A DNA stretch of 64,000 nucleotides from assembly GCF_000003815.2 (NCBI RefSeq), contig NC_049988.1:4350628-4414627 (forward strand), given 5' to 3'. The position numbers were made by a program, and so were the translations under genes. Source of the DNA: Branchiostoma floridae (lineage: Eukaryota > Chordata > Leptocardii > Amphioxiformes > Branchiostomatidae). This document shows positions 11,824 to 64,000 of the stretch, piece after piece. The first letter of the stretch is position 1. Every line of letters starts with the position of its first letter. The notes beneath the pieces were generated by a model that was given only the letters and a program-made list of their open reading frames with translations, did not search any database and had not been told where the DNA came from.

Positions 11824-11860
11824 CTAGGCAAGGCTGTGTACCTGAACATCGTGATTTTCG
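11446..11860 (-). repeat. Degenerate tandem repeat rich in palindromes, overlapping the RTK-A 3' end
   Basis: About eight copies of GAGCAGTTTTGAACTGC-like imperfect palindromes lie here. They are interspersed with three copies of AAGGCTGTGTACCTGAACAT-type sequence (about 11541, 11724 and 11833). The last copy is the coding region for the final codons and stop of RTK-A, so the C-terminal tail and 3' UTR share a duplicated unit. Confidence 0.7.
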
Positions 11861-14800
11861 AAGTCTGAGCGGTGTTTGAAAGAAGTGTGGATCTGTTCGA
11901 TCTTTCTCAGGACTTCCTTGAAGTTCGGCCGTTCTAAGGGACTAGTCAGCCAACATTGCTTCATAATGCTGTTGTACCTGTGTCGGAGAAACAACATTGA
12001 AGATTACTTTGGAAGCTCATATGTGAATTGTAATCATATTGTACAGTGCTAAACTTTCTCAACAGAGACGGTGGGTGATAAAAACCGCCTGTCACGTTTG
12101 ACCAGTTAATGACGTCACGTATACGCAAGATCACGTGTCAATAAGGTCATATGGTTGCAACTCTCGCGAGTTTTCTTTTGGAAGTGATTGGTTATCATTG
12201 ATCCTGAAGAAGGAGACAGTGGTCGTTGAAATTATAGCCCTTGTATACCTTTGTGTTGGAAGAAAGGTTCGCATTGTACTAGCAGTGAAGTGTAGCTATA
12301 GTTTGATTAGTTCAATTAACTGAAAAGGTGTCACTAGGCACTACAAGGGTCTGAACGAACAAATACATTTGTATAGACAAACGAATACTTACAGCATGAT
12401 GGGGCATCTGTTGGGCCGGTCCATGCGGTATCCTTCCTTCAGGTGATGTACAATGGACACCCCAGGCATACCGGGGTACGGTGTCTGTCCAGCAGCGAAT
12501 ATCTCCCATAGTACAATCCCATACGACCACTGCAGTAAGAAGCAGAAAGTTGTATTTTTGTCCACGTCAACAAACGTTATTACAGAAAAAGATGAAGGTA
12601 TAGTTTTTAGGCATAGCTTGAAAGTGTATCTGTGTTCAACTTGTTAGATGTCATTATTGAACTAGTTAAACTGTAATTTCCAACAAAAAATTTTCAAGGA
12701 ATGCCTTACAACCATCCCTGAACAGAGACAGTGGGCACCATAGACTTTCTGCAACATATGATTCACTACTTCTTCAGAAAGATCTGAACACCCTGGAAGA
12801 GTGGCAAAGGAAATGGCTTATGCAGTTCAATCCGGATAAATGTTATATCATGCACATAACAAACAAACGAACCCCAAATGTATCCCCCTACCAGTTCTGT
12901 GGTCAGACATTAGCAACCACAAAAACCCACCCATACCTCGGTGTTACATTAACAACTGGACTGAAGTGGGGTGTCCATGTTAACAAAATAACAACCAAGG
13001 CTAAACAGACACTGGGAGTAATCAAACGCAACTTGTGGGCATGCCCAGCCAGGGTAAAATCACTTGCATACACGTCACTGGTAAGACCAAATCTTGAATA
13101 TGCTGCAACAGTATGGGATCCGTATACAAAGAAAGACAAAGATAAACTGGAAAGGGTACAGAACCAAGCTGCCAGATTCTGTACAAACAACTACAGCAGA
13201 GATGCTAGTGTTACCAAAATGAAAACAGATCTGCAGTGGACATCACTTGAAGACAGGAGGAAAATGTCCAGACTTTGTATGATGTACAAAATGACCAATA
13301 AACTGGTGGACGTACCGACTGATAAGTATCTAACACCAGCTCAAAAACGAACTAGAAACAGTCATGCTTTCAAGTACCAGAGTTACCAACCTAGGATTGA
13401 TGTGTTCAAAAATTCCTATTTCCCCAGAACTATTGTAGAGTGGAATATGTTATCACCAAGCACAGTAGGGGCGTCTTCTCTGGATAGTTTCAGAGAACAC
13501 TTGCATATAGATGTGCAAAAGTTAGGTGTGATGAGTCGCTCAGTGTAATATAACCAGCTGCTGCCGCGCCGCGTGCCTGCGAAGCTGGTGTGTTACGCCG
13601 AAGGGCGGTTATACCGGCTATATAGATACAGATACAGATACAGATACACTGCTTACTGAGTCACGTGTTCTATCTGCATAACGTGACGCCACGACAGCAG
13701 TGGATTGTTTATTTCTTGACAAAGACTGGTGCTGTTAAGTCGAAAATTTGTCCAATTTTTGTGTTGGAAATTACAATTTAACTAGTTCGATAGTTTTAAG
13801 GCATGTTTGCTGAGTATCCAGAGCAATGACGCAATATTTCAAGAACCTTCTTGTATTCGCACGATTCCCTCAGTTTAGGAGTTCCCCGAGGATGCCATCC
13901 ATATGATCAAATACAAATGGCCAACATCTGGCAACACTTATATGCATACAATGACAAATATTTATGAACTCCAAGGAATCTGTGGCTTTCAAATCTTGTC
14001 ATTTCACTTTTTAACACTTGCTTTCGGTAGCTTTCAGTTTCTATTGATCGTCGTTGTAATAAATGGACTGTGTAATACAAATGATAGACAAGAAGGAACT
14101 TACTATGTCAGTCTTGGTATCAAAGATGTAGGTGGCGTGGCTTTCCGGCGCCATCCACTTGTACGGTAACTTGACCTGGGGAGGGGGGCAAGGGTGTTGT
14201 CCGGTCTTCATTTATCCAAGCAGCACAAACAAACAAACAAACAAAACAGAAACAAACAAATAGGGCAAACAAGGGAGAGACAAGGGAAGCAATTGTTACA
14301 AAGTGATCATTTCTTAGGCTGTGAAACGTTTTCTTAACTGTAAGACAGCTATGAGACTCGGAGAATCTACTCTGTTCTACTCATAAAAGGAAGATGGCAA
14401 ATCCTCTTTGCCTCCGTTCAATGGGCCATATCAGTCCGGATATCAGAATTATGGTTAACGCAGAGCCTACGAAGCAAAAGCACATTGCCATGGCAACGCG
14501 TCTGTGCACATGCGTACTGGTTTGGTCTAGATTGCCATGGCAATGGTATGGCGTTACGCAGAGTTCTTTATGTTCCCATAATGCGATTCGTGATTTTCAT
14601 TTTTTTAGTGCCATAAATTTTGATCACGCTATGAAAACGTACATGTACCTCCCAGCTTTGTATTCTGTAGTAACCCTTTTCGTGGACGTCTCTGCAAAGA
14701 CCGAAGTCTGCAACTTTCACCCGCAAGTTTTCGTCCAACCTATGTATGAAATACAGACCTTGTTTAAAAACTAAATGTAAAACGACATAAACAAGATGTA

Positions 14801-16674
14801 GCGTCAAATCAAGTTTTTTTAACCTCCTTGGTCAAATCAAACTGTGACATATGATAATCTCTGCATAGAAAATGTTATAAAGGATAGACCATACAGGTTA
14901 AGGAATTGTCTGTATTAGAACGTTCACCGAAGACCATTCAAGAACATAGCATTATCCTACACAAGATACAAGTAGTCTATATTGGGGTATATTGTTCTTT
15001 TTCGAATTCTAGAAATGACGTTAAGTAACATAAGTTTCCATGAGTTGTACCTGCATGGAACGATTGTTGTGCAATAACGACTTATCTATATCAAGACATA
15101 CGCCATCGTAAAGTGGACGAAAAACTCAATTTTTTTTGGCACAATAATCAAAATAAGTATCTTTGTTAACCACAATGTAGGGTCTCGTCTCGGAGTTCCT
15201 GTCACGTGACTGATGTTGACGATCACGTGATAAGGTCACGTGGCAGCCTTTTGATTGGATACTTACATGCAGTTTCTCGCTGCCAGATCACGATGTACGA
15301 TATCGTTATCAGACAGATACGCCATGCCACGAGCGATGTCAAGGCACAGGCGAAGATTCTCCAACAAGGGCAATGTCTGTGTGTAAACAAATAAGGGTTT
15401 ATAACGTGTTATACGGCTAACGTTTTACGTACTTTCGGGCTTGAGCCCTACGTGGGACACCCTGCCGATATAGGGCTATTTTGGGGCAATGTCGGGCCAT
15501 AGTAAGGTACTCAGTCATTTTCACCTGAGTGAAGTGAGGAAAGTCGTGTTAAGTGCCTTTAACAATTGCATAGCGTCAACGGGGCATGTCAGTAGGTTTA
15601 AACCCAGGATCTCTAGGATCTGAGCCAAACATCTGACACCACGCCGTTTGTTTACATGTTTACCGTTTGTTTACCTGTTTGTTGATGAGATATTTCCGCA
15701 GATCTCCGTGCTTCATGTAGGGGAGGACGATCATGGCCTGGTTGCCATGGACGCAGATGCCGGTCAGCTCCAGCACGTTGTCATGGTTAAACTTGATCAT
15801 GCGCAGTCCTTCCTGGAGGAGGGACACCATCTCCCCTGGCGCGGCGGTGTCTGGGGGTCAAAACCACAAAAAAAATTAGATGGAATTCGCATCAAACCTC
15901 ACTGAACCGAGACGGTGGTAGATTCTATCTTTCCGCCACTTTTGATTCGTTACTGACGTCACTTCCGACTTCCGGAACGCCAGCGCAGTGAATCATCGCA
16001 GTCACCTGATGAAGGTCGACGAGATCGAGTGAAACTTCATGGTGAATGTTTTCCTTGTGTTGTTGGCACAAAGCTAAAAAAATGGTCAACTGTGCACGTG
16101 GCATCTACCAACAGAGATGAGTCTTAATTCGAATCGCAAAAGTCCTGTTAGATGGAGGACGCCATAAACTTGACGCAGCATTTAAACTTACTCATCAGTG
16201 CTTGATAAAGACTGGTGGTGTTAGGTGGAAAATTTGGGTAAGTCACATGAAATCAGAAGCCGTGGGCCTGTTAAGTAGGGGTGTTATCATAAGTATAGTT
16301 GGGACCACACCAAACTGTAGCATTAGACATATAGCCATAACGAACCTACCATACAGGGTCTTCGCAGCACATTCCATCCATTTATTGCCCTTTTTGTAGA
16401 CGCCATGTCGAACCTCTCCAAAGTTTCCTAGATGTGTAACGGCATAAAAACATTCGCTATGAGAAGTAAAAAAATTAAATTTTGCAACGAAGCAAACAAA
16501 CAAGCAAATAAACAGACAAGCAAACAGATAAAACTCAAACACTGCAAGGCTTACCGTTTCCCAGAGGCTCAAGCAGGGTGATTGTGTCCTTGTAAATTAG
16601 CACGTGGTGAATTTTAGATCTTTCCTCGCCGGTGAATCTTTGGAGCAGCATGCTGGGCTCCTCGTACCCACCGA
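11824..16674 (-). CDS. RTK-A exons 10-17: juxtamembrane segment and tyrosine kinase domain
   Basis: Exon 10 (16555-16674) gives the juxtamembrane stretch and LGNG. Exon 11 completes the Gly loop NFGEV and holds the lysine (CAAKTL). Exon 12 holds helix C (MVSLLQEGLRM), HDNVLELTGICVHGN and the hinge [14 protein letters not shown]. Exon 13 carries [12 protein letters not shown]. Exon 14 carries [11 protein letters not shown] and the activation-loop pair Y799-Y800. Exon 15 carries LPYKWMAPE. Exon 16 carries TDI/WSYGIVLWEIFAAGQTPYPG. Exon 17 carries CWLTSPLERPNF and ends VHSLA before [11 protein letters not shown] marks a tyrosine kinase; LPYMKHGDLR and AARNCMLDE resemble MET and AXL/MER. No extended docking-site tail is present. 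Confidence 0.92.
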
Positions 16675-19600
16675 CTGTATCAGAAAAAAGAGGAAAAATT
16701 GACTTGTAATTGATAAGGCCAATTCATCATTCAATCGGTCAAGATGGGTTAGCCGATGGTACTGATATGACTGCCGTATGACGTCACAAGACAACATTGT
16801 GGTGCTCAAGACTCTATGGTTAAACAAAACCTGTAACTTTAGATAAATGGTTATAGTGAGGTGTAAAGAGAAGCTAGGTTGCTAGGGAAAATCAGGGCCG
16901 TGGCAGATATGAAACCATGGTCACCTTTGACCAACACCTGACGTCACATGTGCCGAAGATCAGTGCGAGTTAATAAAGTGGGGCAAACGCCAATTGATTA
17001 TTCGCTAAGCCGAGGTTGGAGAGGGGGGGTGGTAGTGGCCGAGATTATTGTCAGCTCCCGACCGTTACCATTCTCCAACCTCGGCTTGGAAAATAATCAA
17101 TTCATACTGCCGAAAGTTAAGTGAGTCCAAAGGTGGGTCCAAAAATTTCGAAGTAAGCTACGTAGTTCTTTGTGGGGAAAAAATGTATTTAAGATAGTGA
17201 GATTAACTTTTGCAGGCGCAATTGACAGCATGAGATATCGTTACCAAATGTTAAAATGCTTCACTCACTCGTTGTTATGGTGACAGTAACGCCGGCGCTC
17301 CTGACGTCACCACGTTCACTGATGACGGTGACGTTGTATGACGTTCCCTGCTCCAGTCCGCTGAACTCGGCTTGGAGCGGGTCAGATGCGTGGATATGTC
17401 TTCTGGCAATAACCTGTAAGAATGTTCGAAAAACGTGAATGATAATGTGGCACTATATGAGCATTCTAACCTCTTTATGCTCGCACCAATAAATTTTGTG
17501 AAAGTTTGTGTACCCGCCATCTTGTTTTCAATTTCAGTTCTATTCGATTTCCATATGCTCGCTCACACTTTCGAGTACGAATGCGCAGCGACAGGAATTC
17601 TGGGTAATGTGTCAAAGGTAAAGGCCCCTAAAACATAAACAAAGCACGTCGGGACGTTGATATGCAAAATCTAGACAATGGTCGACACGAGAACTATTTA
17701 CATTTTGTCAGAGGCTTTCAACTTTGACATATCACAAACAATTCTTGGCGCCGCGGATGCGCATACGGAATTATGAACGAGCTCATTAAACTCCGCCAAT
17801 TATTCTGCCAAAAACGCTCTTTTAAAAATAGGAACACTTGTATGTGAAAGTCACGGTGAAGATGACGTCAGCAGATAAAAACTTGTTGGTGTACCTTGGG
17901 CTCGGGAGTGGCCAGTCCCAAAGTGACCAGGTACTTGTCCACGTCACCAAAGTGTTGGAGGTTCTTGTACGCAGGTTTGAAAGTGATACCGATCGATGTC
18001 TCTGTGGTGGTTGCTATGGTTACGCACTTCGCATCCGGTAAAACTAGAAAAAACAAAATGTCGGCTGCTAAGTCTTCAATCCAGATGTTGGGAGAATGGT
18101 CGTAGCGCAATTCCGCTGACACTACTTCTTTTTAACAGAGAGTATTCTCAAAGCGAAGCCTCCCAAAATGAGAGGAAAGATCGCAACATTTTCCTGGCTG
18201 CTCCTCTCTTCTTTTGCATTAGGAAAGCCTTACAGAGAAGCGTTCTGAGTAGGAGAATTTTACGATCTTTCCTCCTGATATCGCAATTGGAGACTTTTTT
18301 TACAAAAAGCTACCTTATATTGTAGTTATCAACACTTGCAAGTACTCTGGAGCAGTTAGATGTTAGCTTTATGCCTCTAGTGTTTTCAGGTTAAGCATTG
18401 CTTATACCTTTTCCGTCCAAGAGATCAGCAAGATGCGTTTGATCTGAGTGTCGCAAGGCGTCGCTGAGGACACGGGACGCCTGGTCACCTTTCAGCACGC
18501 AGAGAATTTCCAACAGCCTCTCTACCACACAGGGGGCCGCCCGGACTCCGGCTGTCACATCAACAGTCAGACTCTGTAATAGAGGAAGGAAGAAATGAAT
18601 GATCGGATGAAGGGGTGAAGAAAGGAAGGAAGGAAGGAAGGACATAAATGAAGGAAGGAAGGAGGGGAAAAGAAAAAAAGAAAGATGAAAGAAAAAGACA
18701 AAGCAAGAGCTTGAGGGAAGAAAAGAAACAAACAGTAAGAAAAAAGTAATAGAGAAAGAAAGAGAGAGAAGATAGAAGGAAGGAACTAAAAATGAAAGAA
18801 AGGAAGACAAAACGAAAATGACACAAAAGGAATGAAATGAATAAAAATAAAAATGGAATGATAAAAAATGACTAAAAAAGACGGGTGGAAGTGAGTAAGT
18901 AAGTGAATGTGTGCTAACAGCAATTAAGTAACAAAGCAACAAATACATCACTGCTCATTTTATGTTAGATTTAGCGAAACACTTTCTGCTCATTACCAAT
19001 TTCGTAGATGACGTCACTCACCCGTTTTTCCCTCAGAAACATTAGGACAGGATCCACGTCCATTCTCACTAAACAATCCCAGAATTCCTGCAGAGCTGGA
19101 TCCGCCATTTTGTCCAGTTCGGTCGCGTCGGAAACGCCTGAAATAAAGTTCTTCGTTTAGAGACGGATATTAAAATTAGGCAAATCCATAGTTTATGTTC
19201 TTCTTACACAAGATCCTCGGGTCAGCGGGAGATGGTTCTCCCAAAAATTGGCAGGTAAAAATTTTTGTGCGCTAAGAACTTGTCAGCAAAGAAATTTGAT
19301 AAAATCAAGATGATACTACAGTTCTACTTGCACTGGTGCCTGGAGGGAGTGTAGCACCGAAGCTACCAATTTGTTCCCGGTGGACTGCCTGATACCGTGG
19401 GTACCTCTCGATGTACAATGGTAGATAAAGGCGCCTGTTTGTTATCGGGTCCCGAGTTGATTTTAACTACAAGTTTTAAGAAATACAGGGGCCCGGCCCT
19501 GCCCGAAAGACCCCGAGGGCCCTTTTCTCCAAATAGGAACCTAGCACTATATATGTATATGCAGAAACTCGTGAAAATGAGAAAATCATATTTTGTTTTA

Positions 19601-22600
19601 TTGGACGGAATATGTACTTACGTAGGACGCTCATGTCTGGACACAGGTATTCCAGTCTCTCTCTGTGATGATTATTGGATAACGATAAAATACGGTCACA
19701 TTTTCGCTGTTTGATAGATCTTTTCCGCCGCCGATGGTAGATGAGGGCACCGACAATGATCAAGACGCAAGACGTGGTTACTGTGACGACTATCGGTACA
19801 ATTAATGGACTGTCGAACCAATTGTCGTTTCTGGTCCCTGTGAGCATTGTTGGTGGAGGTACAGGGCTCAGCGCCTCTGCAAGATAGGATTTCAAAAAGG
19901 GATTAAGTTGTAAGTGTATAGCTTGGTCGGATCATGAATTGTTTCTTTGTATAAATGTTCATACTACCAGTATACCAGAATGTCACAATAATTTTCCATG
20001 CCAGATAGAAGAAACCGTCGAATAAAACGAAAATAAAGGCCACGAAACATTGCAGGAGGTAAAGGAATACACGTGAACTTTGAAAGAAAAAAAATCTCAA
20101 GGGCAAAGGGCGAGGTCATATTTGTCGTGCGACGACGGTCTACGGCCAATGTGCGTCCTACAAGTGCAGAAATGACAGCTGAAGAGCACGGCACAGCCGT
20201 AAACTTACCAATGATCGTGACGTTGACCCTAGAGGACCCTGGCTCCCCCACGCCATTGCTGGCTCTACACAGATAGACCCCAGAGTCCTCCAGCCTTGCA
20301 GGAAAGATGATCAGTGTTCCCCTTGTAGGGTCCGTAGAACTGTCTGACGGCAGCTCATATGTGTCCGAGATTTTGTACCAAGTGTAGGTAGGGCGAGGTA
20401 GACCTTCAGCATGGCAGGATAGCTCAACTCTTCCTCCTTCCGTGATGTTGGCTTCCTTTACGGTAGCTACCGTGTTTGATGGCGCATCTGTGATGCAACA
20501 ACACGTGTACAGGTTGTAAGATATGAAAGCCTGAAGGACACATATCGGAGGCATTTCGCACGCATCTGGAGATGCCTCCGAGCTCTGCCTCCGAAATTGC
20601 TTCGACATGCCTCCGCATTGCCTTCGAGATGCCTCCCAGTTGTGTCGTTGTGGGCTTTCGGAGTACGAGTATGGTGTCCACTCCAAAACATCAGATAGAG
20701 TTGAGTACAAAGTGCTTTTACATTAAACTTCCCTGCTTTCATCAGAATTTTAGAAAAAAATCAACTTATTGAGAAAATAACAAAATGCGTTGGGGGGTTG
20801 GGGGGTGGGGGTGATTGGAGGCAACTCGATAAGTCACAAAACTCTAAAAAGTCGTCGTTCACAAAGAATTGATGCGAACGCCTTAGAACGATCATCTTCT
20901 TTCTTACAGAGTATTAGTAGGTGAATTGGATATTCTGTTGAAAGAAAACGCAAATTTGCCATATGTCAAAATTATATGTCATTTATGCATGTAATTTGCA
21001 TTTTCTGTCCTGCTTAGTTACCCTTAGTTCTATGCAATAAGTACGTCCATGGTTCCAAGTACGCATGTGCAGCGATGGGAATCGTGGGTAATATGTCAAA
21101 GGTGAAGGCCCCTGAATCAGCTTTCGCCTTGACCGTTGTCTCAACTTCCATGACAATTCTTAGACGTATTGATAATGCATCAGGAGCCTTTGCCTCTGAC
21201 ACACCATCCATGATTCCTGTCTCTGCACATGTGTACGTGAAACAGTGAAGTAGCATATCCTACACATTTGTTTAAGAAAGCTTACGAATATCCACAACAA
21301 ATATTCACCTACATTGGACTATAATGTCGATGAAGGCGTTTTCGTCTGGTGACAGGCCATTGGACGCCTCACATTGGTACCGACCGTTGTCTTCACGGCT
21401 CACTCTGGGTATGATCACAGTACTAGTGCTAGTAGTACTGTCGTGGACTGTGTTCTCCTGTGCTGTTGGATTGTTGAGAGCTGTGCTATCTTTGGTCCAT
21501 TGGAACGTAGATGGCGGGTTGCTGCGAGTGGTGCAGGAAAGCTGAAGCCGAAATCCTTCATTAACGGTGGTTGCGGGCGCACTGGCGGTAGTTTCTGTTG
21601 GAGGATCTAAAACAAATGTATAATACAAACGTTTACATATACCGTATATTTGATGTCAAGAAGGACAATCAAAAAAATTGTCATGCCCAAAGAAACGTTA
21701 TGATTACAAAAATATATGTTTAACATACAGAAAGACAAGGAGATAGCTATGTGCGTTCTTTCATGTGCATGAGGAGAGAAAATAAATCAGTACAAGCAAA
21801 GTTTGTTTTCAAAATGACAGACTTTACGTATGAAAAGCCTCCAATCATAGTCCAGGTCAAGATGTAAATACTGGGAAGGGAACAAAATGTAGGAAAAAAT
21901 CTGGAAGACAAATCTTACTCAAAATGACGTTAGGCCACAGCAAGTAAATTGTATGGATTACTGATGTAATCCGCGCTCATTAATTTTTGCCTGATTTAAA
22001 AATAACATTATTCCATTTGCTCTCTCGATATGGTGAAGATGACGAAAAAGTACCAAAATATGAAATATATTTATGTGATAACCTTGATTGGACTCGTAGA
22101 AGTGACACTAGTGAGGAACATGTAGTTATGACCGTAGTTGTAAAAGTGAAACTAGTTCAATAATAATAGGAAAAGTAGTACCAATGTGGTAGCGATGGCT
22201 GTAGTTGGCAACTTGGTAAATAATACCACACTAGATCACTTTTTGCACTTCTTGAATACAGAAACATAAGACTTGTTGGCTGTGATGCCATGATTTTTCG
22301 TTACAATTCTTGTTACAACGTTTATAGTGTCTATATTTGAAAATCTAGATATCTTGTTTTTTTTACCCATCTTTTTTTTTTCGCCCTCTGTCGTTGAATT
22401 TGGAGTCTGCAGAGAATGGCATCTATAAAATTAACTTGCTGTTGCCTTATTTGCTAACGGATGCACTTACATTTAACCGTTAGTGTAGCGATGTTAAATT
22501 CGGTCCCGCTTATCAGGTAAGCAGTGATTCGATAACCCCCGGCATCTGCCTCTGACACATCCGACAGTGAAAATCCGTACGCGTAGTCGTCCAGGCGTTG

Positions 22601-25600
22601 TGCCCGTCTTTCATACACGTGTATGAACGGGGAACCCTCTTCGTTTTGCCACAGATTCAAGCCACCAATTAATGTCTGTGGTAGTTTCAGCCATTGGAAT
22701 GAGTTGACTCCGGTATCGTCGAAAGACCACGGGAATTCTGCGACACCTCCTCTTAAAACTGTCACATTCCCTGGGATCCGGGTGAAGAAACCATTCGTTG
22801 CAGCTGAAAACATATAGAAGGGCAGGCGGTCATTTTACTAGTGTCACATGAACGTTTAAGTTTTTAGTTAGCGTTACGGATGGTATTGACATAGCCGAGA
22901 GTGGACTTTTGACAGGCTACCACTCTTGGTGTATGGTAACCCTTTGGTTGGAACAAATAGAACCACTTTCATAAATAATTTCATCAGGTTGGTAGAATAC
23001 AGGATTTTGAAAACAGGTTTCGGTAAACAGCAAGTATCGAATGACTCCTAAAAATCGACGACGATTGTTAAAGATCGGGCGCTGGTCGAAAAAGCACCGC
23101 ACGTATCACTACCGAAAAGGCCATTAGAGCTCGCAGAGTCGTCGTCCGATCGATTTTCGCGCAATGTGACAGGGGTATAACAACATGCCCGAGCTGAGGC
23201 CCACCCTGGGATCGAACCACCGCCCGCAAATGCACAAAATTTTGTCTCACATGTATATGGTGAAGCAGCGTTTACTAAGAAATAGACACTAATAAACACA
23301 AATTATGGTTTCTTTGTCCGTTGTCCATCGACTTATACTGATGATGATGATGGCTGTTTCTTCGTATCCGAAGATCAATGGTAGGCAGACAAGGTTCATT
23401 AGACGACCAGTCTGCCTGGCCTGCACGTGACTTTTTAAGGTGAATGAGGGGTGTGCACTTCCTTCTCCACCCTCTCGTCTACTGGCGCACTAAGTCCTAC
23501 AGGGACAGAACTGTTTGCCACGTAAGACGGCCCCAGCAGATGCAGGTTTATTATTTGGAGTTTCCATCTCCTAGGAGGACTTCCGACCAAGGATCCTTAT
23601 ACTAAAAACGTACTTAAAAGCTAACGTACCTATTACTGTCAAATCTAAAACATAATCCTGTACGCATCAACAGCAAAATCAGCGTCTCAAAAGAACGATA
23701 CCAAATGAAAAATATTCAAAATTTTCAGGGATACCCCAAACAGCTGTTATCGTTACACCACACACAAAACGACGAAAATCCGTTCAATTAAGCCAGAGTC
23801 AAACAACTATTTATGGATTCCCCAACCACGACAGTTGTTCTTGCATTAGACAATCACATAACCCAGCCTATCTGCGTGTAGATAAGCTGATTACCAAACG
23901 CCGAAACCACATTGCCAGTTCCACAATACCGAAAATATAGGGGCGATTTCTGAAATTATCGATTATAACAACCGCTAACGCGAAAAAAGTGCATCATCAC
24001 TCAACTGAGTACAAGCGACATGCCAAACCACATACGAATGCGGCAAACAGCCAGAACATAGAGATATAGGTGCGAACACTCATCACATAGACCGTTCACA
24101 ATACTTTGTCGACGGAGTTTACCCTCCAGTCACAGAGTAACAAGATAATGCAATGACAAAAGAATTGATAAATTTTCGTATTTTGTGGACCATCAGTATT
24201 GATGGTAGACGACAACAATAATGAAACAGAGGCAGCAGTAACCTTTTAGTAAACCTTTGTCATTCTTCGATCAGTGCGTTACGAAATGTATTGACATAGC
24301 AGGCTCGCTCCAATAAAACCGTTTGCACAAGGGCAAGGTATACAGGCCTATATATATAGAGAGAGAGTGGTCACTTTAATGATATACATCCAGGTATATT
24401 GACTGGCTGTTCACTACGCCATGGCATAAACTTTGACCTATTTCAGCAAAGGCAGTACGGTGGCCCACTGTGGGCGATGAGCATGCATGCAGAAATGAAA
24501 ATACACACAGAAAATGAAAATGCCCATAGAAAATGAAAATACGCAAAGAAAATGAAGATACCCACAGAAAATGAAGATGTCCACAGAAAATTAAAAAAAG
24601 CACACAGAAAAGGAAAAACAACACACCAAAGGAGTCGTTAATTTGCTTTGTACTTCTGGGCCATCGTATGATTTGATCAGTCGTAGTATCGGACGTGCGA
24701 AGTTCGATATCGATATTCCGCCGAACTTACTAGTAGTACCTCTTTCACTTTCACCAGTTGTCACTGATATGTTGTCTTATGTCGTAAAAATTCTTCTGGA
24801 AAGCTTACATAGTCTGCGTGAAGTGTGAGTCACAAAATAATCTAGCGCCTAGTAACCTCAATTCGACAGGAATTGCCCCAGTTGCGGCCATAAGACTGTG
24901 GGCTTTGAACCACTCACACCGGGAAGAGTTCCTACTCTTTTCGATCACAGATTAATGCTCGAAGTGTGGCTCTCCTAAAACACAGGACATCCATTTAACG
25001 CTTTATCCGAGGGACGTCCCCAACCGCAGCTGGGTACTAATGAAGTGAAGTGAGAAAAGTGGTGTAAAGTGTGTTTCCCAAGGACACCATATCCGTGGCA
25101 TATCAACGTATTTGAAGCCAGGACCTCTAGATCTGGGTTATGGGGCAAACACCCTGCAGGTTATATACCACACGACCCCACTCCTAATTAATATCGTTGT
25201 CTTGTGCAAGTTTTACAAAACGTTGTAGTAAATTCTTGTTCCGTTTCTATTAGAAAATCGTACGGCAAAGAAAGTCGTACGGTGAACTTATTTTAAGTTA
25301 AGGGCACAACCCGCTGTACGTGCAAATACGTGCTGTCTACGTGCCAAAACGTGGGCAATCTTTTGAGATCTGTAAGTGGTAAGTACCGCCTCCGTACGAA
25401 CTCGTAGGGAATACGACGGATTTTGGAGAACGCAGACACGCCGTAGAATTTTACGTGCAGGCAAAACTTTGTGTGCCATCGGGCTGTGGATTCACCCCCC
25501 GTACGTGCCAGTACGGGCGACGCGCCTGCCCTGTACAGCCTGAACGTTTTCAGAAATACGTGGCGGACGTGGCCTCCACAAAAACGTACGGACGTACGGC

Positions 25601-25727
25601 GGGTTGTGCCCTTAGCTTTACCTGTTAGTTCCTGAACGAGACACGCCAAGATGGTTAGGACTGCGGCTCCAGAGAATCTTGAATGCCCTCCAAAGCGACA
25701 TGAACACTCTGCAATCTTTTCCCGCAT
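11824..25727 (-). CDS. RTK-A: Ig3-TM-CARD-FN3-tyrosine kinase receptor (17 exons, complete)
   Basis: Minus-strand exons in order: 25622-25727, 22471-22803, 21313-21606, 20209-20487, 19622-19876, 19022-19137, 18408-18573, 17895-18043, 17269-17413, 16555-16674, 16350-16427, 15675-15850, 15267-15376, 14649-14739, 14104-14175, 12393-12529, 11824-11977. Every border has AG and GT, phases match throughout, and the 2781 nt encode 926 residues plus stop. Order: signal peptide 1-35, Ig domains about 36-146, 147-244 and 245-337, transmembrane helix about 362-384, CARD about 434-516, FN3-like 517-614, juxtamembrane 615-651, kinase about 652-910. All catalytic motifs are present: LGNGNFGEV, K677, HRDLAARN (D769), DFG (787-789), MAPE and RPNF. 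The kinase is closest in pattern to MET and AXL/MER. The extracellular ligand is unknown. RTK-B (from 40554, plus) is an inverted paralogue. Domain assignment is from motifs, not a profile search. Confidence 0.88.
12690..13650 (+). mobile_element. 5'-truncated CR1/Jockey-type LINE, RT C-terminal part
   Basis: From about 12720 to 13548 one frame encodes the end of a non-LTR reverse transcriptase: TLEEWQRKWLMQFNPDKC, thumb motif YLGVTLTTGLKWGVHV, then SLVRPNLEYAATVWDP and RVQNQAARF, typical of CR1/Jockey-clade elements. The palm and endonuclease are missing. A 3' UTR with GGGCGGTTATACCGGCTAT and a (GATACA)n tail ends near 13650. It lies in the intron between kinase exons 15 and 16 of RTK-A, antisense to the gene. 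Confidence 0.85.
15480..15650 (-). repeat. SINE-like dispersed repeat copy
   Basis: Carries AGTGAGGAAAGTCGTGTTAA and TTTTCACCTGAGTGAAGTGA, the reverse complement of sequence at 61140-61215 and related to 25015-25190. It is intronic in RTK-A between kinase exons 12 and 13. Boundaries are approximate. Confidence 0.5.
16994..17102. mobile_element. Short hairpin MITE-like element
   Basis: Arms TTGATTATTCGCTAAGCCGA.. (16994) and ..TCGGCTTGGAAAATAATCAA (17100) are near reverse complements of ~29 bp around a ~50 bp loop. It lies in the RTK-A intron before the juxtamembrane exon. Confidence 0.6.
17269..18043 (-). CDS. RTK-A exons 8-9: FN3-like domain
   Basis: Exons 17895-18043 and 17269-17413, joined at phase 0. 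About 98 residues with FN3 spacing: [30 protein letters not shown], then FSGLEQGTSYNVTVISERG ending VTVTITT. The gL.pgt.Y.v.V motif is the classic FN3 F-strand. Its place on the cytoplasmic side between CARD and kinase is unusual, since receptor FN3 domains are normally extracellular. No second transmembrane helix is seen before the kinase. Confidence 0.72.
18408..19137 (-). CDS. RTK-A exons 6-7: cytoplasmic CARD
   Basis: Exons 19022-19137 and 18408-18573 are joined at phase 0. Together they encode about 83 residues with the CARD pattern: ALQEFWDCLVRMDVDPVLMF, L in SLTVD, a [17 protein letters not shown] segment and a last helix [17 protein letters not shown]. The late ILxxKGxxAxxxLxxAL...HLADLL series is the most diagnostic part of CARDs in adaptors and caspases. 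CARDs form homotypic helical assemblies; the partner is unknown. The intron between the exons carries a ~300 bp pyrimidine-rich tract (transcript sense). Confidence 0.82.
18574..18910 (-). repeat. Long polypyrimidine tract (transcript sense) before the CARD exon
   Basis: The plus strand reads GGAAGGAAGGAAGG and AAAGAAAGAGAGAG for about 300 bp. In RTK-A sense this is a CTTT/CCTT-rich tract ending directly at the acceptor TATTACAG of exon 7. RTK-B has a similar tract (55570-55752) at the same intron end. Confidence 0.85.
19622..19876 (-). CDS. RTK-A exon 5: transmembrane helix
   Basis: 85 codons, phase 1-1. A short Pro-rich stalk and NDNWFDSP precede the helix PIVVTVTTSCVLIIVGALIY, which ends in the strongly basic stop-transfer HRRRKRS. 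This fixes the N-out, C-in topology for a protein with a signal peptide. A 35-residue cytoplasmic linker follows. Confidence 0.88.
20209..20487 (-). CDS. RTK-A exon 4: Ig-like domain 3
   Basis: 93 codons, phase 1-1. [19 protein letters not shown], then LEDSGVYLCRASNGVG and a G strand VNVTIIG. The Ig fold is complete here. The RTK-B counterpart lacks 13 nt in the segment encoding GVGEPGSS and loses frame. Confidence 0.88.
20560..20645. repeat. Short GCCTCCGA-rich repeat
   Basis: Several copies of a GATGCCTCCGAG-like word at 10-25 bp spacing lie in the RTK-A intron between Ig2 and Ig3. No function is assigned. Confidence 0.5.
21313..21606 (-). CDS. RTK-A exon 3: Ig-like domain 2
   Basis: 98 codons, phase 1-1. 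Typical I-set/C2 pattern: [18 protein letters not shown], and SREDNGRYQCEASNG, with both cysteines and the tryptophan. RTK-B exon 3 (50782-51078) is one codon longer and very similar. Confidence 0.88.
22471..22803 (-). CDS. RTK-A exon 2: Ig-like domain 1 (no canonical cysteines)
   Basis: 111 codons, phase 1-1. Begins FFTRIPGNVTVLRGGVAEF and has the Ig F-strand pattern DVSEADAGGYRI. The usual B- and F-strand cysteines are replaced (AEFPWSF and YRITAY), the same as in RTK-B, so this domain probably folds without the central disulfide. The residues around it (SFQWLK) keep the core tryptophan. Confidence 0.8.
23336..23530 (+). repeat. Dispersed repeat, copy 1
   Basis: Shares CCTTCTCCACCCTCTCGTCT, GCCTGGCCT..CATGACTTTTTAA-type sequence and a preceding (GATGAT)n run with 50424-50625. 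The two copies lie in non-corresponding introns of RTK-A and RTK-B, so this is a mobile repeat rather than inherited intron sequence. Confidence 0.6.
24487..24615. repeat. Minisatellite, ~20 bp unit
   Basis: Six to seven copies of CACAGAAAATGAAAATACC-like units. Intronic in RTK-A. No coding potential beyond repeat translation. Confidence 0.8.
25015..25190 (-). repeat. SINE-like dispersed repeat copy
   Basis: GGGTACTAATGAAGTGAAGT..AAAGTGGTGTAAAGTG and a downstream GACCTCTAGATCTGGG block parallel the 15480-15650 copy. Minus orientation relative to the B-box type copies. Confidence 0.45.
25301..25611. mobile_element. PIF/Harbinger-like MITE (311 bp, TTA target duplication)
   Basis: Terminal inverted repeats AGGGCACAACCCGC and GCGGGTTGTGCCCT are flanked by TTA on both sides. 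The 3 bp TTA duplication fits PIF/Harbinger-type insertion. The interior is rich in GTACG/CGTAC words. The element starts nine bases inside the intron from the end of RTK-A exon 1. Confidence 0.75.
25622..25727 (-). CDS. RTK-A exon 1: signal peptide
   Basis: Encodes 35 residues plus one base, with a hydrophobic core (AAVLTILACLVQ) and then ELTG. The length (106 nt), phase 1 exit and SC[RQ]F/CL[VA]QE[LI][TA]G pattern match the first exon of RTK-B at 40554-40659, which supports this as the main first coding exon. The donor GTAAAG is followed within ten bases by a MITE (25301-25611). Confidence 0.8.
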
Positions 25728-40553: not shown

Positions 40554-40659
40554 ATGAAAACGGAGCCTTGGGGAAGTTCATGTCAATTCCAGGGACAACT
40601 GTGCTTTTCCAGAGTCTTTTTGCTAATCGTCTTAGTGTGTCTTGCTCAGGAAATAGCAG
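40554..40659 (+). CDS. RTK-B exon 1: signal peptide
   Basis: 35 codons plus one base, with core [17 protein letters not shown]. Same length and phase as the RTK-A first exon. The upstream ATG at 40531 is closed by TAG within four codons, so 40554 is the likely start. Donor GTAAAA. Confidence 0.82.
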
Positions 40660-43600
40660 GTAAAAATATGCTGTCCGCCATTGTTAATGACTTGTCATAT
40701 GATGTTTGTCAAACCAGAAGGCTTTATCCTCCTTAAGTTGGTCCATAACAATTGCCATGACTCTAGATCTGCTAGTGACAGAACCATCACGTTCAAGCAA
40801 GGATTTATGAATTCCGTCATACTAGTAAACACATCATGATATAGCAAGTGTGACTGGGACATGGCAATTTAGATGTGGCAATGTAACGAACATTTTGGAT
40901 ATAACTTGTATCAATCTTGACAACCCTACCGGCCAACCAAAGCGCTCAGGATGACCAACCTAGTAATAACGTAGCAGATATTATAAGGCTTGTTGATGTT
41001 TTAAAAGTTTTCGACTGTGCTTGGGGTCTGCCATTTTGTCCCTTCTGTAACTTCCTTGTTAGATTGTATGTTCAATGGTTTAATGTTAAAGCGTATTAGC
41101 AAGATTACAAAAAATGTTGAAACTGTGTACAAGTCGCACCTCACAAAGACATGGTAATTTGCATGGGTACCATCCGATTACTACCAGGCCTGCCTACTAT
41201 GAAATGTAATTCATTTGGGTACCCATGGCAGGCTACATGTGGCCTTACTGTTGCTGTACAAGTCTAATTCCACAGCAATTTTTCGCAGTAACACCATTTG
41301 GGTACAGTGACCTAATTGTAGTTTGAACAGAAATGGCTTATAATTAGGTGAAAGTGAAAGCAGTACTAAGACTTAATGATGAATGGGTTCAACAAAAGAG
41401 TATCGTAACTCTGCAGGTATGTCGGATACATGCCTCCCAGAGGTATTCCCACTGTATTGCCTCTGCTGTTAAGGGTGGGGTTTATTTATATTGGGTGGTG
41501 AGGTACATTGACCTCCTGGACTATTTAATACAATATGAAATATTAACCATTAAATTGGTTAGTACTTAATATATGCTCTGTGGCAATGCAAACAATGTTA
41601 TTAGCGAGGCTTATAATGTCAATACCTTGCGTAACACTTGGCAAACTTGCAAGTTGCACACTGGGGTAGTCAGGCTCACAGAAAAGCATTTATGTGTTTG
41701 AAAAGTTTTACTAAAATTTTAATTGGCAGCTACGTTCAATATAATATATTAGAATGAGCAAATTCAGATGCATTGTCTTAATCTCATAAGGATTATAATG
41801 TCATAATTGAGGCAAGCACACAATCAATGTTCAACTTTCGTTGTTATTCACAATTTCGTCTTTGTTTCAGCTGGCGCTGACAACTTCTTCACCCAGGTCC
41901 CGGGGAATGTCACCATTTTAAAAGGGAACACTGCGAGGTTCCAGTGGTCTTTCAACGATACTGATGTCTATTCTGTTCAGTGGACAAAAGAACCAACTGG
42001 ATCATTAATCGGTACCTTGTACTGGAAAAACCAGGAGTTGCGAATTCACCCAGCATATAGTGAACGTGTCCCCCTAAACGTGACCCTAGCCCCTGGTTTT
42101 GCACTTTTAAATGTGACAGAGGAAGATGATGGGAACTACAAAATTACAATCTCTTTTATTACTGGATCCAACCCAGTCAGAGAGAGCTTTGCTACACTTG
42201 TCGTTATATGTAAGTACAATCTCTTTGCAAAAGTCAAATACTTTTTTCTATATATTATGTTAACCCCATTCAGACTGGGCCTTGGGACAGAGTGGTGGTT
42301 ATTCTGAGGCGGCGCCGCCGGGCCCCCTGTTACAGGGGCACAGTCTCTTTCAATATCTACAACAAAATCTGCCCCTGTAGTTCAAACCAAGCTGCTAGGG
42401 GGCCTGCAAACCTACACCACTTCTACTCCCTGCCCGGAGACCACTAAAATTACCTTAGTCACAAACACATGGCACTTGTAGAAAATTTGCCCCCCCCCCC
42501 AACTTAAAAGCTCTGCTGCATTACTGTAACTTGCCGCTAGAAGGTCGATTATTGAACCTGACTTTCCTTTTTTGCAACCCCTACCCATCCACCAAATATC
42601 AATCACCTTGAGTATGTTGACTATGTACGTAAACACACAAACTTACACAGCCTGGTGGGGTGTGCCTTAACACCACAAACGACCACAAATAACCCAGAAC
42701 ACCACAAACGACTCTGATATGCAGTGTATATGGGTCAAATATCTTGTGTGGCGCTCTGGAGACATTGTTTACACATTTATGAAATTCAATTTAAAAAACG
42801 CAGCAAGTCCTACATATTCACCAGTTATTTCGAGTCTGGTTTCAAGATTAAAGCAATTCTTGGCCACCATGTTGGATCGTGCTTGCTTACATTCAAGTCA
42901 AGTCAAGTCAAAGTTTATTGCACAACATTTGTAAAACGGGTACAATGTATGGCAAACTTAGCTAACGTTATATTGTACAGACAACTAGCAATATGCTAGT
43001 AGTAGAATTAATCTAACAAAGTAACAATAGGTTATGCAATGTTCTATTGCTAATAACATGAAAACATACTACATTCAGGCAGACTATTTTATACAAACAA
43101 TATGACTGAGAGGAGACATAGCGAGGATCTTATTATCTAGTATATACATTACAATGACAATGTATACAAAATTAAGTTGAAATCATGAGGTTCCTTTTCT
43201 GCATGGATGTATATATGTATTGGCCTACGTAAACGGAAACAGTGTCGGGACATGACATAAGTACATGAAATAACTCTCTGTTTGTCTTAGGTAATGATTT
43301 GTTCTTTATCGTCTGCATTAATTTAGCTCTTTCTTCTATGTAAGTTGGACATTCTATCATGAAGTGGTATTCATCTTCTACGCCTTCTTTGCATGTTGGA
43401 CATAGTCTCTGGCTCGCTGGGACATTATTGTGTCGGCCCTTTTCAATTTCTAACCGATGTGCAGCAATTCTGAGTTTTGTTGTATTGGCTACGAAAGATT
43501 TGTTTTGGACCGAAAGCAAGTATTTCTCAATATGAAATTCAGATTTTATTTTTGAATATGTTTCGAGTTTACTGAAACTTTTGATTTTTTGTCGCCAGCT

Positions 43601-46600
43601 GGATAGAAACTCGTCTTTAAGGCGCTCCTTGAACATGTTTCCAAAGTAGTTGGCGCTTATGTTGGGGTTCAGCCAAATATTTTGGAACCCGTGTCTACAG
43701 AGTGTATCTCGTACATGTATAACCCAGTCTTGTTCTAGTCTTACAGCGTCATTATATGCTTTTTTCACGATTCTGTCATTCGAAAGGCTGTTCAATCTTA
43801 TCCAATATTTAACCAGTTGAGTCTGTGTATCTATGTATAGCGGAAACATGCCCAATTCTCCCCTTACTGCAGCGTGAACTGAACTTTTGGGGACGCGGAG
43901 AAGTATTTTGCAGAAGTTTAGAAGAACATATTCTAGGTCGGAAACCTCGTAAGAAATTGGAGGTTGAGATACTGTAATGTTTTGTTTAGCTAATGTATTG
44001 GAATGATATATCATCTGTAACTTATCATTGTACTTGCTGAGTCGAATTAAAACCGGACGGTTAGATGGTGGGTCAGATTTTTTTCCGACACGAGTAGCTT
44101 TACAGATATTAACATCCGATCCTAGTATCGGAGATATAATGTCGGATAATATTTGTCTTATGTTTTCATTTGGACATTCCGTTATTCCATTAAGGATGAG
44201 ATCCCATGATTGAACTGTTGTTCCCAGTATCTCGCTACAATAAAGCAAAATTGGTTTGACTAAACTATTAAATAAATCAAGGGCTAGCGGAATGGATGGG
44301 TTGTAGTTTGACAGAAGGAGGGATCTGAGTTTGAAAGAAGCCCGGAGGGCTTTTATTCTCAGTTGTTTTGTTGCACGCTGAAATGATCCGGAGGGTGTTA
44401 TATCTACCCCCAGATATGTATAAAAGTTTGTGATGTTTAAGGACTGTCCTTGTGATTGGAAATTTGAGTTTTTGTTGTAACCTGTTCGTCCAGTTTTTGA
44501 AAATATCATAACTTTAGTTTTGTCTCTATTGATTGCTAGCTTCCAGAGTGAGCAGAATCTGTCTAGTCTCTTTAGGCACTCTTGGAGACCACTTTCTGAC
44601 TTTGAGAAGAGGACTAGGTCATCTGCCTATAGGAGACTGTTAATTGGAGTATTATCGAGAGTGACAGGATCACATAATGATGAAGACAACTCGCTAGGGA
44701 TGTCATTTATAAAAAGGTTAAATAAAAGGGGGCTTAGATTACACCCTTGGCGTACGCCGCACGTTGATTTAAAGTAGTCTGACAGGCCACCAGGAGTTTT
44801 AACACAGTATTTTATGTTGGAATACATGGATTGTATGATTTTGAAGAATTGTCCCCCTATGCCTGATGATAACAGTTTGTAGTACAAGCCATCTCTCCAA
44901 ACAGAGTCGAATGCTTTCTTGAAATCAACAAAGCATGCGTATAACTTTCCACCAGGTTCAGACAACTGTTTATCGATGATAGTTTTAAGCACGAAGATGT
45001 TGTCACTTGTCCGGAAGTTTTGTCTAAATCCGGATTGAGAAGGAGTCAATATATTGTTATCTTCCAGAAAGTGCTGCAGACGGTTACTTAATATGAGAGT
45101 GAACAGTTTCCCAACGCAGCTAGAAATTGCGATCCCTCTATAGTTTGACGGGTTGGATGTATTGCCGCTTTTGTGTATGGGGACGAGAATGTTTTGACTC
45201 CATTGATTGGGAAATGTACCGGACTGGATGGCGAGATTGAACAGTTTCTTCAGTGGCATGACAAGTTGGTTTGTGCCACATTTTAGCATTTCATTAGTGA
45301 TGGAGTCTGTGCCACATGCTTTACGGCCCTTTAGTTTATGTAGTCCGGCTATGATTTCGTCTTCTAAGATGTCATAGTCCAAGGGATTTCCCGTTTTATT
45401 TGCAAGGGTATTGATAATAGTTTTGGTATGCTCCTTATTTCCTATGTCAACTTCGTTATCACTTCCCGTTGTCTGAAGCAGATCTGTTTCTTTCTGACCG
45501 ATATGTTGATGGAAATCTGTGTCGGCTTCATTAATTTTTACAAGATCGTTCAGATTTTTGAAGTGAGTTTTCCACTCTTCAGGGCTTATGTTATTATTTT
45601 CATCTTGTTTATTATTTCCATCCTGGTTTTGAATTTTCATTTCTCTCCAGAATTTTTGTGGGTCTGATTTACTGAGTTTATAAAGATTGTTCCATTGCCT
45701 TTCTTTGAAGAGCTGTCTTTCTGCTTTAATCTTTTTCTTGTAAATTTTAAGGTTGTTAAAATAAGCATGGCGAAGATCAAGTTTCCAGGGACATTTAGAA
45801 AATTCTGTAGCTAAACGATTGACTTTCCGTTTGAGAGCAGCACATGACTGGTTGAACCATGGTTTGTTTTTGTTTTTCCTTTTCTTTTTCTTTTTGTGGA
45901 CAATCTTCCGTAATGACTTGTCGGCAACATGTATGATAATGTCTTCGATTTCTTTCACGGCGTCTTCTACAGTAGGGAAGGATTTATCCATGAATTTCTG
46001 TAAATCTCTTACAGTTGAGGGAGCTTGTAATGCCTCTGTAAATTTGTCTTTAGAATTGTCGTCCCAAACATATTTAGTCGGTAAAGGATGCGAAAAAGGT
46101 TTGGTTTGTTTTATATAGGGTGAATAATTCGTAGAGATTGAGCATGTTATCAAACAGTGATCAGAGAATACGGAGGGATCTTCAACTTTGAAGTATCTAA
46201 CTTTTGGAAAGAATTTCGAGCTAACAACACAATAGTCCACTAAACTAGAACCGTTATATTTATGGCAGGTAAGCTTTCCGGACAGGTCTCCTGCGACTCT
46301 ACCGTTTAGAAAGGTTAGATTAGCAGATGAACAGAGCTCAATTAAGTGCTTGCCGTATTTGTTTACACCTTTGTCGCGGCTTGATCTATACCGTAGGTCG
46401 TCTTTGAAATCTATAAAATCGTGATTTAGGCAGTCATCTTGAATTGTAGTCTCCTGTAGAGATGCTGTTCTTGCGTTAAGGTCACCTAATAACATTATGT
46501 TCCCTTGATTAGAGAATTTGGAAATATCATCTTGTATCGTTTCAAAGGGCAAGTTACTGCTTGTAGAAATAGGTGATGAATTTTCGGGGGAAAAGTATAG

Positions 46601-61600: not shown

Positions 61601-63601
61601 TGGAAATCTTAAATTGGTTCTAAAAAATGCTCAAAGGTCCAGTATTTATATCTACTTTTAATTATTGACAGTATGCAGTCAAACCTGTGCAAGACAACCA
61701 CCAGGGGGACTGAATTGGTCGTTTTGGACAGGTGGTCAGATTGAATAGTATCAACTCACAACATGCCCAAGGCAGAGTATAAATGGTTTCCCTTGTGTTC
61801 AATGGCAAATAAGAAGTGCACGCACGCAAAGAAGTATAAAGTCAGCAAAGTGTTAATGTCAAATACATGGACGCAAAACAAGGTAAGTAAGCCTGATGAA
61901 GTTTACTCATTGACTCAAGTGATAGTTGAGGCCAGCTGGATCGTCAGGCGGGACGGTGTTGCGGGGACACGTGTGGCGGGGAACTCTTTGCACGCGGGTC
62001 TTAGGAGTGTGAACATACCATAACATGTTAAACCATTATTTGTTTACACAGTCCCTGTTGGAGAATCTTCACCTGTGTCTTGACATCGCTCGCGGCATGG
62101 CCTATCTGTCTGATAACGATATCGTGCATCGTGATCTGGCAGCAAGGAACTGCATGTAAGTATCCTATCTAGGGTTGCCTCTACCTTAGTCCATGTATTA
62201 ATGCTAACAAACTGATTCACGTGATAAAAGTTTCCAATGGCAAGCAATTATCTTATACATTTTGTACAACCATTTTGTAATGAAGTTATTCATTTTATAT
62301 GATATGTAAGCATTCTCACTATCTTTTAAAGTGGACAAAAATTCCGAAATATGTATCATTCTCTAATATCAACTAAATATATAAGTCAATAACTTAAAGA
62401 CAGTGACTGTGTTGTGTAAATTATCACTGCCTAATTTCTGTCTGACATTGTCCATTATCTGTTAACTCTCCTACCGGTATATCAGAAATACTGCCTTGAG
62501 TCAGTGTAATGTACATTTACTTGTTACATTTGCAAATGATGATAATAAGAATATATATATATATATAAACTCGGCACAAAAAGTTTGGAATATCAACTTT
62601 GGCTGATCATATTTCCGTTGTTTCTGCATCAATTTCAACGTGTTATATATCAATAGAAAGCATGTATGATTTTCTTTCACAGGGTATCAAACTCTTTATG
62701 ATCATAAATTCGTGGAACGAGCACCAGGGCTGCTTACGTCAGTGGGTCACGAAAAAAAAAGTGCCTAAATTTCCCTTCTTGTGTTCAACACTGTATCATA
62801 CTGTTGGTATGGGTGCGGGTGTCAAAGGTTCAATCTTTCCTTTTTTCACGTAATCTTTGGTATACAGAACATCCAAGTTTATCTTTAATATTTGAGTAGA
62901 GTATTTGTGTCCCTTTGGGCTGTTCGATGACCGAATCGAGGTGTGGAGGCGGCAAGGAGAATGCCAAAGTCTGCAATGGTCCTTGCTATGTGTGGACACT
63001 TGAAGAATTGCATTTGGTCCCATACACACGCTGACGAGGTATGACATTGCGACTGAATGGAGAATGGTGTCCCTGTATCTCACAGTATTGAGGTTGTCTG
63101 GGATGAGGGTGAACGTTAGTTTTCATGTGGCAGCCTTACATACACCACACCAGGACACTGCCTCCACCAAGCCCTACGCGCTGGTTAACGCTCTATCCGT
63201 GCGACAGTCAGCGTGGCATTTTCCTTGCCGCCTCCGCACCTCGATTCCGTCATCCAACTGCCAAAAGGGCACATATACTCTACTCAAATATTAAAGATAA
63301 ACTTGGATGTTCTGTATACCAAAGATTACGTGAAAAAAGGAAAGATTGAACCTTTGACACCCGCACCCATACCAACAGTATGATACAGTGTTGAACACAA
63401 GAAGGGAAATTTGGGCACTTTTTTTCGCGACCCACAGACGTAAGCAGCCCTGGTGCTCGTTCCACGAATTTATAATCATAAAGAGTTTGATACCCTGTGA
63501 AAAAAAATCATACACGCTTTCTATTGATAATACATTGAAATTGATGCAGAAACAACGGAAATATGATCAGCCAAAGTTGATATTCCAAACTTTTTGTGCC
63601 G

Positions 63602-63638
<37 letters not shown>

Positions 63639-63884: not shown

Positions 63885-64000
63885 GTACTTGACATTGTAC
63901 GTTTTCATGACATCAAAAAACTGTTAGTTTAAACCAAAAATTTATGTCATGTCACAAACCCCTTCCCCATGATGAAAAAACACTGGAGAACTCTCAGGGT
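63885..64000 (+). other. RTK-B intron at the window edge
   Basis: GTACTTGACATTGTACGTTTTCATGACATC parallels the RTK-A intron after its DFG exon (GTACATGTACGTTTTCATAG in gene sense), so paralogous similarity extends into this intron. Sequence stops before the next exon. Confidence 0.6.

Follow-up and report, generated by a model that had tools for sequence, protein, structure and literature searches.

Death receptors (the TNFR family, UNC5 and p75NTR) are transmembrane proteins with cytoplasmic death domains and are not known to contain a CARD or a kinase. A kinase and a CARD are combined in one chain in RIPK2, which the relevant passage of PMC9573974 describes as an N-terminal serine-threonine kinase with a C-terminal CARD. 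In vertebrates, receptor tyrosine kinase (RTK) and CARD systems are distinct and meet via adaptors or scaffolds, e.g. CARMA3 downstream of RTKs (PMC6104486). For lancelets, the pertinent sections of PMC2575513, PMC11747288 and PMC9573974 describe "direct connection" hybrids, namely TNFR-caspase, LRR-caspase, TIR-NACHT, LRR-Death-Kinase and Death-Kinase. A synthetic rewiring of tyrosine kinases to caspases by chimeric adaptors was reported by Howard in 2003, as cited in a passage of PMC2575513. Here we analyzed a stretch of 64,000 nucleotides from Branchiostoma floridae (the window; C10:4350628-4414627) within the searched genome of 513 Mb and 431 contigs. It carries a gene, G1, for a predicted RTK with a CARD between membrane and kinase.

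We consider it fairly probable that G1 encodes a single-pass RTK in which a CARD and a fibronectin type III (FN3) domain lie between the transmembrane helix and a MET-like kinase, that it belongs to a family of four such genes, and that receptor clustering couples phosphotyrosine signaling and CARD assembly. The family resembles MET and RON in its YY activation loop, and their kinase domains appear to be the nearest solved ones (phmmer, best 60 of 901 distinct PDB sequences). In contrast to the Sema-PSI-IPT ectodomain of MET and RON it has an immunoglobulin (Ig) ectodomain, and CARD and FN3 are placed between membrane and kinase; the C-terminal docking tyrosines of MET were not seen. With RIPK2 it shares the presence of kinase and CARD in one chain. 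However, its kinase is of the tyrosine type, a transmembrane helix is present and the CARD comes ahead of the kinase; it is not a protein of the RIPK2 type. Death receptors are likewise transmembrane receptors with a cytoplasmic death-fold domain, but their death domains come without a kinase, whereas CARD and kinase are found together here. The lancelet hybrids belong to the same lineage and also fuse a receptor or kinase straight to an apoptosis or immunity module; in the sections cited above, no CARD plus tyrosine kinase or Ig receptor is described among them. The proteins of Howard, as summarized in the passage citing them, couple a tyrosine-kinase input to a death-fold output by engineered DED-SH2/PTB adaptors, whereas in the family described here the CARD is part of one naturally occurring chain.

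Among the papers listed in our literature search there was no Ig-CARD tyrosine kinase receptor or other CARD-bearing RTK, and no receptor with the order Ig3-TM-CARD-FN3-kinase, which agrees with the initial annotation of this locus; the genes may already be listed as unclassified RTKs in the 2008 survey of the amphioxus tyrosine kinases (Mol Biol Evol), or be mentioned in that of the amphioxus immune repertoire (Genome Res 2008). A survey of plexin and MET receptors gives one MET in B. belcheri in its relevant part (PMC6374515), and a receptor with an Ig ectodomain was probably left uncounted there. We regard the receptor as genuine; it is conserved within this genome, and no description of it came up in the literature searched.

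G1 comprises 17 exons on the minus strand, from the start codon ATG at position 25727 to the end of the stop codon at 11824, which join to one frame of 926 residues in a splice-site gene model. All internal junctions are GT-AG with matching phases, and one receptor gene of this extent, as initially annotated, is supported. The predicted protein starts with a signal-peptide-like sequence, followed by three Ig domains, a single transmembrane helix, the CARD, the FN3 domain and the tyrosine kinase. Exon 1 (25622..25727) contains the start codon and the signal-peptide-like hydrophobic stretch (hydropathy window 1.63). Exon 2 (22471..22803) encodes Ig-like domain 1, exon 3 (21313..21606) Ig domain 2 and exon 4 (20209..20487) Ig domain 3, as judged from the gene model and from Pfam matches of the whole protein (Ig_3, E-value 1.8e-34; I-set in three stretches). 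The closest PDB relatives of exon 4 are contactin, roundabout and further cell-adhesion Ig domains. Cysteine is absent from exon 2 of all four genes, so that Ig-like domain 1 lacks the usual Ig disulfide.

Exon 5 (19622..19876) encodes the transmembrane helix, with its hydropathy peak at residues 362-380, followed by the basic stretch RRRKR that had been noted initially, and a YxxP motif. The helix divides the Ig domains from the rest of the protein, and its exon is present in all four genes. Exons 5-17 contain one strongly hydrophobic stretch per protein (mean hydropathies 2.55, 2.97, 1.86 and 2.55); the next-highest windows reach 1.43 and correspond to the fourth CARD helix of G1 and of G2 and to a stretch of the G2 kinase. 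By prediction, CARD, FN3 and kinase are therefore located on one side of the membrane, as the initial annotation had proposed. Since tyrosine kinases act in the cytosol, all three domains should be cytosolic.

The FN3 domain (residues 524-605) is split between exon 8 (17895..18043) and exon 9 (17269..17413), as defined by Pfam and a genome-wide FN3 search. It scores 22.0 bits within the whole protein and 27.1 bits as the domain alone, at a Pfam cut-off of 25 (PF00041); scanned alone, the domains of the other three genes reach 30.3, 29.7 and 29.2 bits and all four are above the cut-off. The junction between CARD and FN3, LLDGK/VLPDA, is almost invariant, with LLEGK in G4.

Exons 10-17 (11824..16674, minus strand) encode a juxta-kinase segment and the MET-like tyrosine kinase with its catalytic motifs. 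Exons 10 to 13 are located at 16674-16555, 16427-16350, 15850-15675 and 15376-15267, and exons 14 to 17 at 14739-14649, 14175-14104, 12529-12393 and 11977-11824. The kinase (residues 646-901) is matched by Pfam with an E-value of 1.8e-84 in the whole protein, and its motifs are intact in all four genes: the glycine loop, the lysine, HRDLAARN, the K/D/DFG residues and the YY activation loop. YxxP follows the transmembrane helix in three of the four genes, the exception being G2, and a second YxxP lies between FN3 and kinase in G1, G3 and G4. The ectodomain, the single transmembrane helix found by hydropathy and a tyrosine kinase with intact motifs are those of an RTK, and kinase activity is predicted.

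Among the best 60 of 901 distinct PDB sequences in the phmmer comparison, MET chains scored 223-236 bits, RON 226, a designed Src-Abl ancestor 217, MER/AXL 204-210, and FGFR3 and IGF1R about 198; the top row is a 678-residue chain labeled EGFR with 290 bits over two stretches. By this ranking the kinase looks nearest to MET/RON. No Sema family is among the 17 Pfam families matched by G1 at E ≤ 1; its ectodomain consists of the three Ig domains. In a kinase tree with 12 of the 127 genomic kinase matches, the four CARD-bearing RTKs cluster together (0.999); the tree contains no vertebrate kinases and therefore does not settle the RTK class. Many of the 127 matches of the G1 kinase in the genome consist of one continuous open frame of about 900 residues, with identities mostly of 33-42%; these are clustered on C1, C7, C8 and C12 and represent large expanded kinase families.

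Three genes beyond the one first described carry the same architecture. G2 (40554..64000, plus strand) is arranged head-to-head with G1 in the window, which contains its exons 1-14, exons 15-17 lying past the window end. G3 (C10:4290946-4300545) precedes the window by about 50 kb, and G4 (C10:15328216-15337724) lies 11 Mb off on the same contig. We modeled G2-G4 from genomic splice sites and checked the phases of 49 paralog exons. Exons 2-17 are collinear in all four genes, with CARD and FN3 between the membrane and kinase exons, and exon 1 was located in G1 and G2 only. The exon phases are identical across the paralogs, with exon 4 of G2 (53760-54016) as the sole exception. The FN3 cassette measures 149+145 nucleotides in each gene, and the CARD cassette 116+166 nucleotides in three genes and 119+166 in G2, in which exons 6 (54967..55085; CARD helices 1-2) and 7 (55755..55920; helices 3-6) are followed by the FN3 exons 8 (57011-57159) and 9 (58040-58184). 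The domain order of the initial annotation thus recurs in four paralogs; the gene itself was correctly described there, and both the four-gene family and the sister gene within the window were missed. A genome search with the FN3 domain retrieved G1-G4 at E ≤ 1e-9. Because other FN3-like matches are weaker (best E-value 2.3e-4; 27 at E ≤ 10), the combination of CARD, FN3 and kinase looks confined to this family within the genome.

G3 and G4 are compact. Introns 5-6, 7-8 and 9-10 comprise 115, 289 and 151 nucleotides in G3 and 97, 552 and 161 nucleotides in G4, and introns this short could hardly accommodate a gene boundary, or a further membrane exon between FN3 and kinase. We rejected the possibility that a transmembrane exon had been overlooked between the FN3 and kinase exons, an arrangement that would place the FN3 domain outside the cell, because intron 9-10 is so short in G3 and G4; it is also countered by the lack of a second window of comparable hydropathy in exons 5-17. 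A comparison of the 9-10 introns of the paralogs gave short matches only, all involving G2 (lowest E-value 5.2e-5, G1 against G2, partly adjoining the acceptor site).

In G1, CARD helices 1-2 are encoded by exon 6 (19022..19137) and helices 3-6 by exon 7 (18408..18573), as assigned from Pfam, the paralogs and AlphaFold2. The initial annotation had named kinase, FN3 and CARD as domains that profile hidden Markov models should recover. This held for the kinase and, with the domain scanned alone, for FN3, whereas the CARD of G1 (residues 448-514) remained under the Pfam cut-off of 23.9 bits, with 12.4 bits in the whole protein and 18.1 bits alone, and its identification therefore rests on the paralogs. 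In each of the four segments the leading Pfam family is CARD or CARD_2, with E-values for CARD of 0.0027, 4.6e-5, 0.0016 and 4.2e-4; in G3 the best match is CARD_2 (6.3e-4). Death-domain, DED and pyrin families gave no match at E ≤ 1 in any of the four segments. An NCBIfam scan of two proteins returned no match, as expected for a prokaryotic library.

Searched against its own genome, the G1 CARD yielded 12 matches at E ≤ 10. Eight of these reach E ≤ 5e-5 and correspond to exon 6 or exon 7 in the four genes. The nearest other genomic CARD is located on C14 and is 45% identical over 66 residues at an E-value of 0.054; its own Pfam CARD E-value is 8.2e-11. Against the PDB, phmmer listed six matches at E ≤ 10, the first being the ASC CARD (E-value 0.0099) and the second a designed helical protein (0.031). 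A profile of the four genes gave a stronger result. Aligned by hhalign with a profile of nine genomic CARDs, it reached a probability of 95.6, an E-value of 1.1e-8 and a score of 47.3, whereas none of 300 column-shuffled controls scored above 22.8 and the reversed profile scored 11.7. Its best PDB match is again the ASC CARD (E-value 7.4e-4; 35 matches at E ≤ 10), and the CARDs of CED-3, Apaf-1 and CED-4 follow lower in the list with E-values of 0.05-0.8. By the hhalign comparison, the four-gene CARD profile is clearly homologous to CARDs.

In single-exon runs of AlphaFold2, exon 6 was predicted to form helices at 13-24 and 28-36, which correspond to CARD helices 1 and 2, with a predicted local distance difference test score (pLDDT) of 81 and an extra low-confidence helix at 4-9. 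Exon 7 was modeled as four helices at CARD positions 3-6 (pLDDT 78). A non-helical fold, named initially as evidence to the contrary, was not what these models suggest. Genome-wide, at least 149 CARD-encoding matches were found, many of them clustered on C5, C6, C12, C13 and C158.

For the CARD exons, the ratio of nonsynonymous to synonymous substitution rates (dN/dS) is 0.22 for G1-G3, 0.21 for G1-G4, 0.25 for G2-G3 and 0.24 for G2-G4, at synonymous divergences (dS) of 1.26-1.60, and 0.30 for G1-G2; saturated synonymous sites precluded a value for G3-G4. Corresponding ratios are 0.21-0.35 for FN3 and 0.07-0.35 for kinase exons 10-16 (six pairs each). As judged from these ratios, the CARD is under purifying selection and kept as protein. 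Between G1 and G2, protein identity amounts to 96% of residues in exon 7 (53 of 55) and 61% in exon 6. We do not claim gene conversion of exon 7 between the two genes, because DNA identity there is ordinary: exon 7 with its flanks is 84% identical, which resembles exons 8 and 12-14 (85-87%). A chance arrangement or a gene fusion appears unlikely; the exon-by-exon conservation together with a CARD dN/dS of about 0.2 makes chance very unlikely.

Based on the gene structures and the profile comparisons we propose the following mechanism. A ligand or a neighboring cell would cluster the Ig ectodomain. Clustering would let the kinases meet and trans-phosphorylate the YY activation loop and the juxtamembrane YxxP sites. 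YxxP is an SH2 docking motif, and the phosphorylated sites could recruit SH2 proteins. The same clustering would bring the membrane-proximal CARDs together and might nucleate homotypic assembly with cytosolic CARD proteins, for which adaptors, caspases and NLR/Apaf-type proteins are candidates; many such partners are possible given the number of CARD-encoding matches in the genome. In this way one receptor would open two branches, one through phosphotyrosine and one through the CARD, with no need for a separate adaptor. More tentatively, the family may be a new natural receptor class in which clustering of the RTK starts the formation of a CARD signalosome directly at the membrane, so that one ligand would drive both phosphorylation and CARD polymerization, with mutual gating. 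An immune or cell-death role is a guess from the CARD module.

Several observations weigh against our interpretation of the receptor. All four CARDs stay under the Pfam cut-off, the highest at 23.8 bits, and none of the 149 genomic matches listed for the Pfam CARD model, searched exon by exon, is a CARD exon of the family. Repeats of TAL effectors, although no CARDs, come after ASC but ahead of CED-3 in the PDB profile search, and again further down; since they outrank the CED-3 CARD, this search is soft if taken alone. The alignments for AlphaFold2 included nine or ten unrelated genomic CARDs, so that the exon models lean towards a CARD. In the FN3 domain, the likely FG loop (exon 9) carries RGD in G1, G2 and G3, with RGE instead in G4, and all four genes have an NxT sequon in this domain; these are features of extracellular type, odd but not impossible in a cytosolic FN3 domain. 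In this assembly, exon 4 of G2 is frameshifted close to where Ig domain 3 ends, and G2 may be a pseudogene, contain an assembly error or use another donor site at this exon. Finally, the CARD (282 nucleotides) and FN3 (294 nucleotides) cassettes of G1 are both of phase 1-1 and can be skipped in frame; the CARD might therefore be present in some isoforms only.

The alternative that survives best, though we regard it as rather doubtful, is a CARD retained by descent that now serves only structure or self-association, as a spacer, a dimer contact or an autoinhibitor of the kinase, in a receptor with ordinary RTK signaling. The sub-threshold Pfam scores would fit this explanation, as would PF00619 matches that begin at profile position 10-17 and skip most of helix 1, intact RTK motifs, and a CARD-FN3 junction whose near-invariance resembles a rigid linker unit. 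Purifying selection on the CARD and the near-identity of exon 7 in G1 and G2 speak against it, as do the many possible cytosolic CARD partners that the genome encodes. We judge it unlikely that CARD and FN3 are optional cassettes, so that plain RTK, CARD-RTK and FN3-RTK forms would arise by splicing and differ in output: the symmetric phases would permit in-frame removal of either cassette in all four genes, but both are kept and conserved in each of them. That two or more neighboring genes (Ig-TM-CARD and a cytosolic FN3-kinase) are joined by read-through is highly improbable, for although doubt over lancelet domain novelty from gene-prediction errors that mimic new architectures is on record in a passage of PMC4967905, which is why the paralog test matters, the four genes share one order, G3 and G4 leave only 151 and 161 nucleotides between the FN3 and kinase exons, and a kinase gene starting at FN3 would presumably lack a membrane anchor in all four cases; the split into two genes that the initial annotation had considered is contradicted.

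Some further features were observed in and around these genes. Intron 15 of G1 contains a reverse-transcriptase-like fragment (12670-13545, plus strand; RVT_1 E-value 0.0019, below cut-off). The long intron 2 of G2 contains retroelement-like open reading frames (endonuclease, reverse transcriptase) and a GDSL-lipase-like one at 43175-46981 and 47200-49680 on the minus strand. Exon 17 of G4 (C10:15337211-15337724) extends past the kinase in a long Pro/Gly/Asn-rich repeat tail that the other three genes lack. Elsewhere in the window, open reading frames with MOLO1/TPM-domain-like matches lie on the plus strand at 2269-2751, 4995-5402 and 9330-9791, the TPM matches being below cut-off; the latter two look like copies of one repeated unit, in which a hydrophobic stretch and a Gly-rich tail are present.

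A family that joins RTK and CARD in one chain would be the natural counterpart of the synthetic proteins that connect tyrosine kinases to death-fold outputs. Its four genes would make it practicable to ask if clustering at the membrane is by itself sufficient to start CARD assembly. For lancelets, it would add a tyrosine-kinase branch to the direct wiring of receptors to apoptosis and immunity modules.

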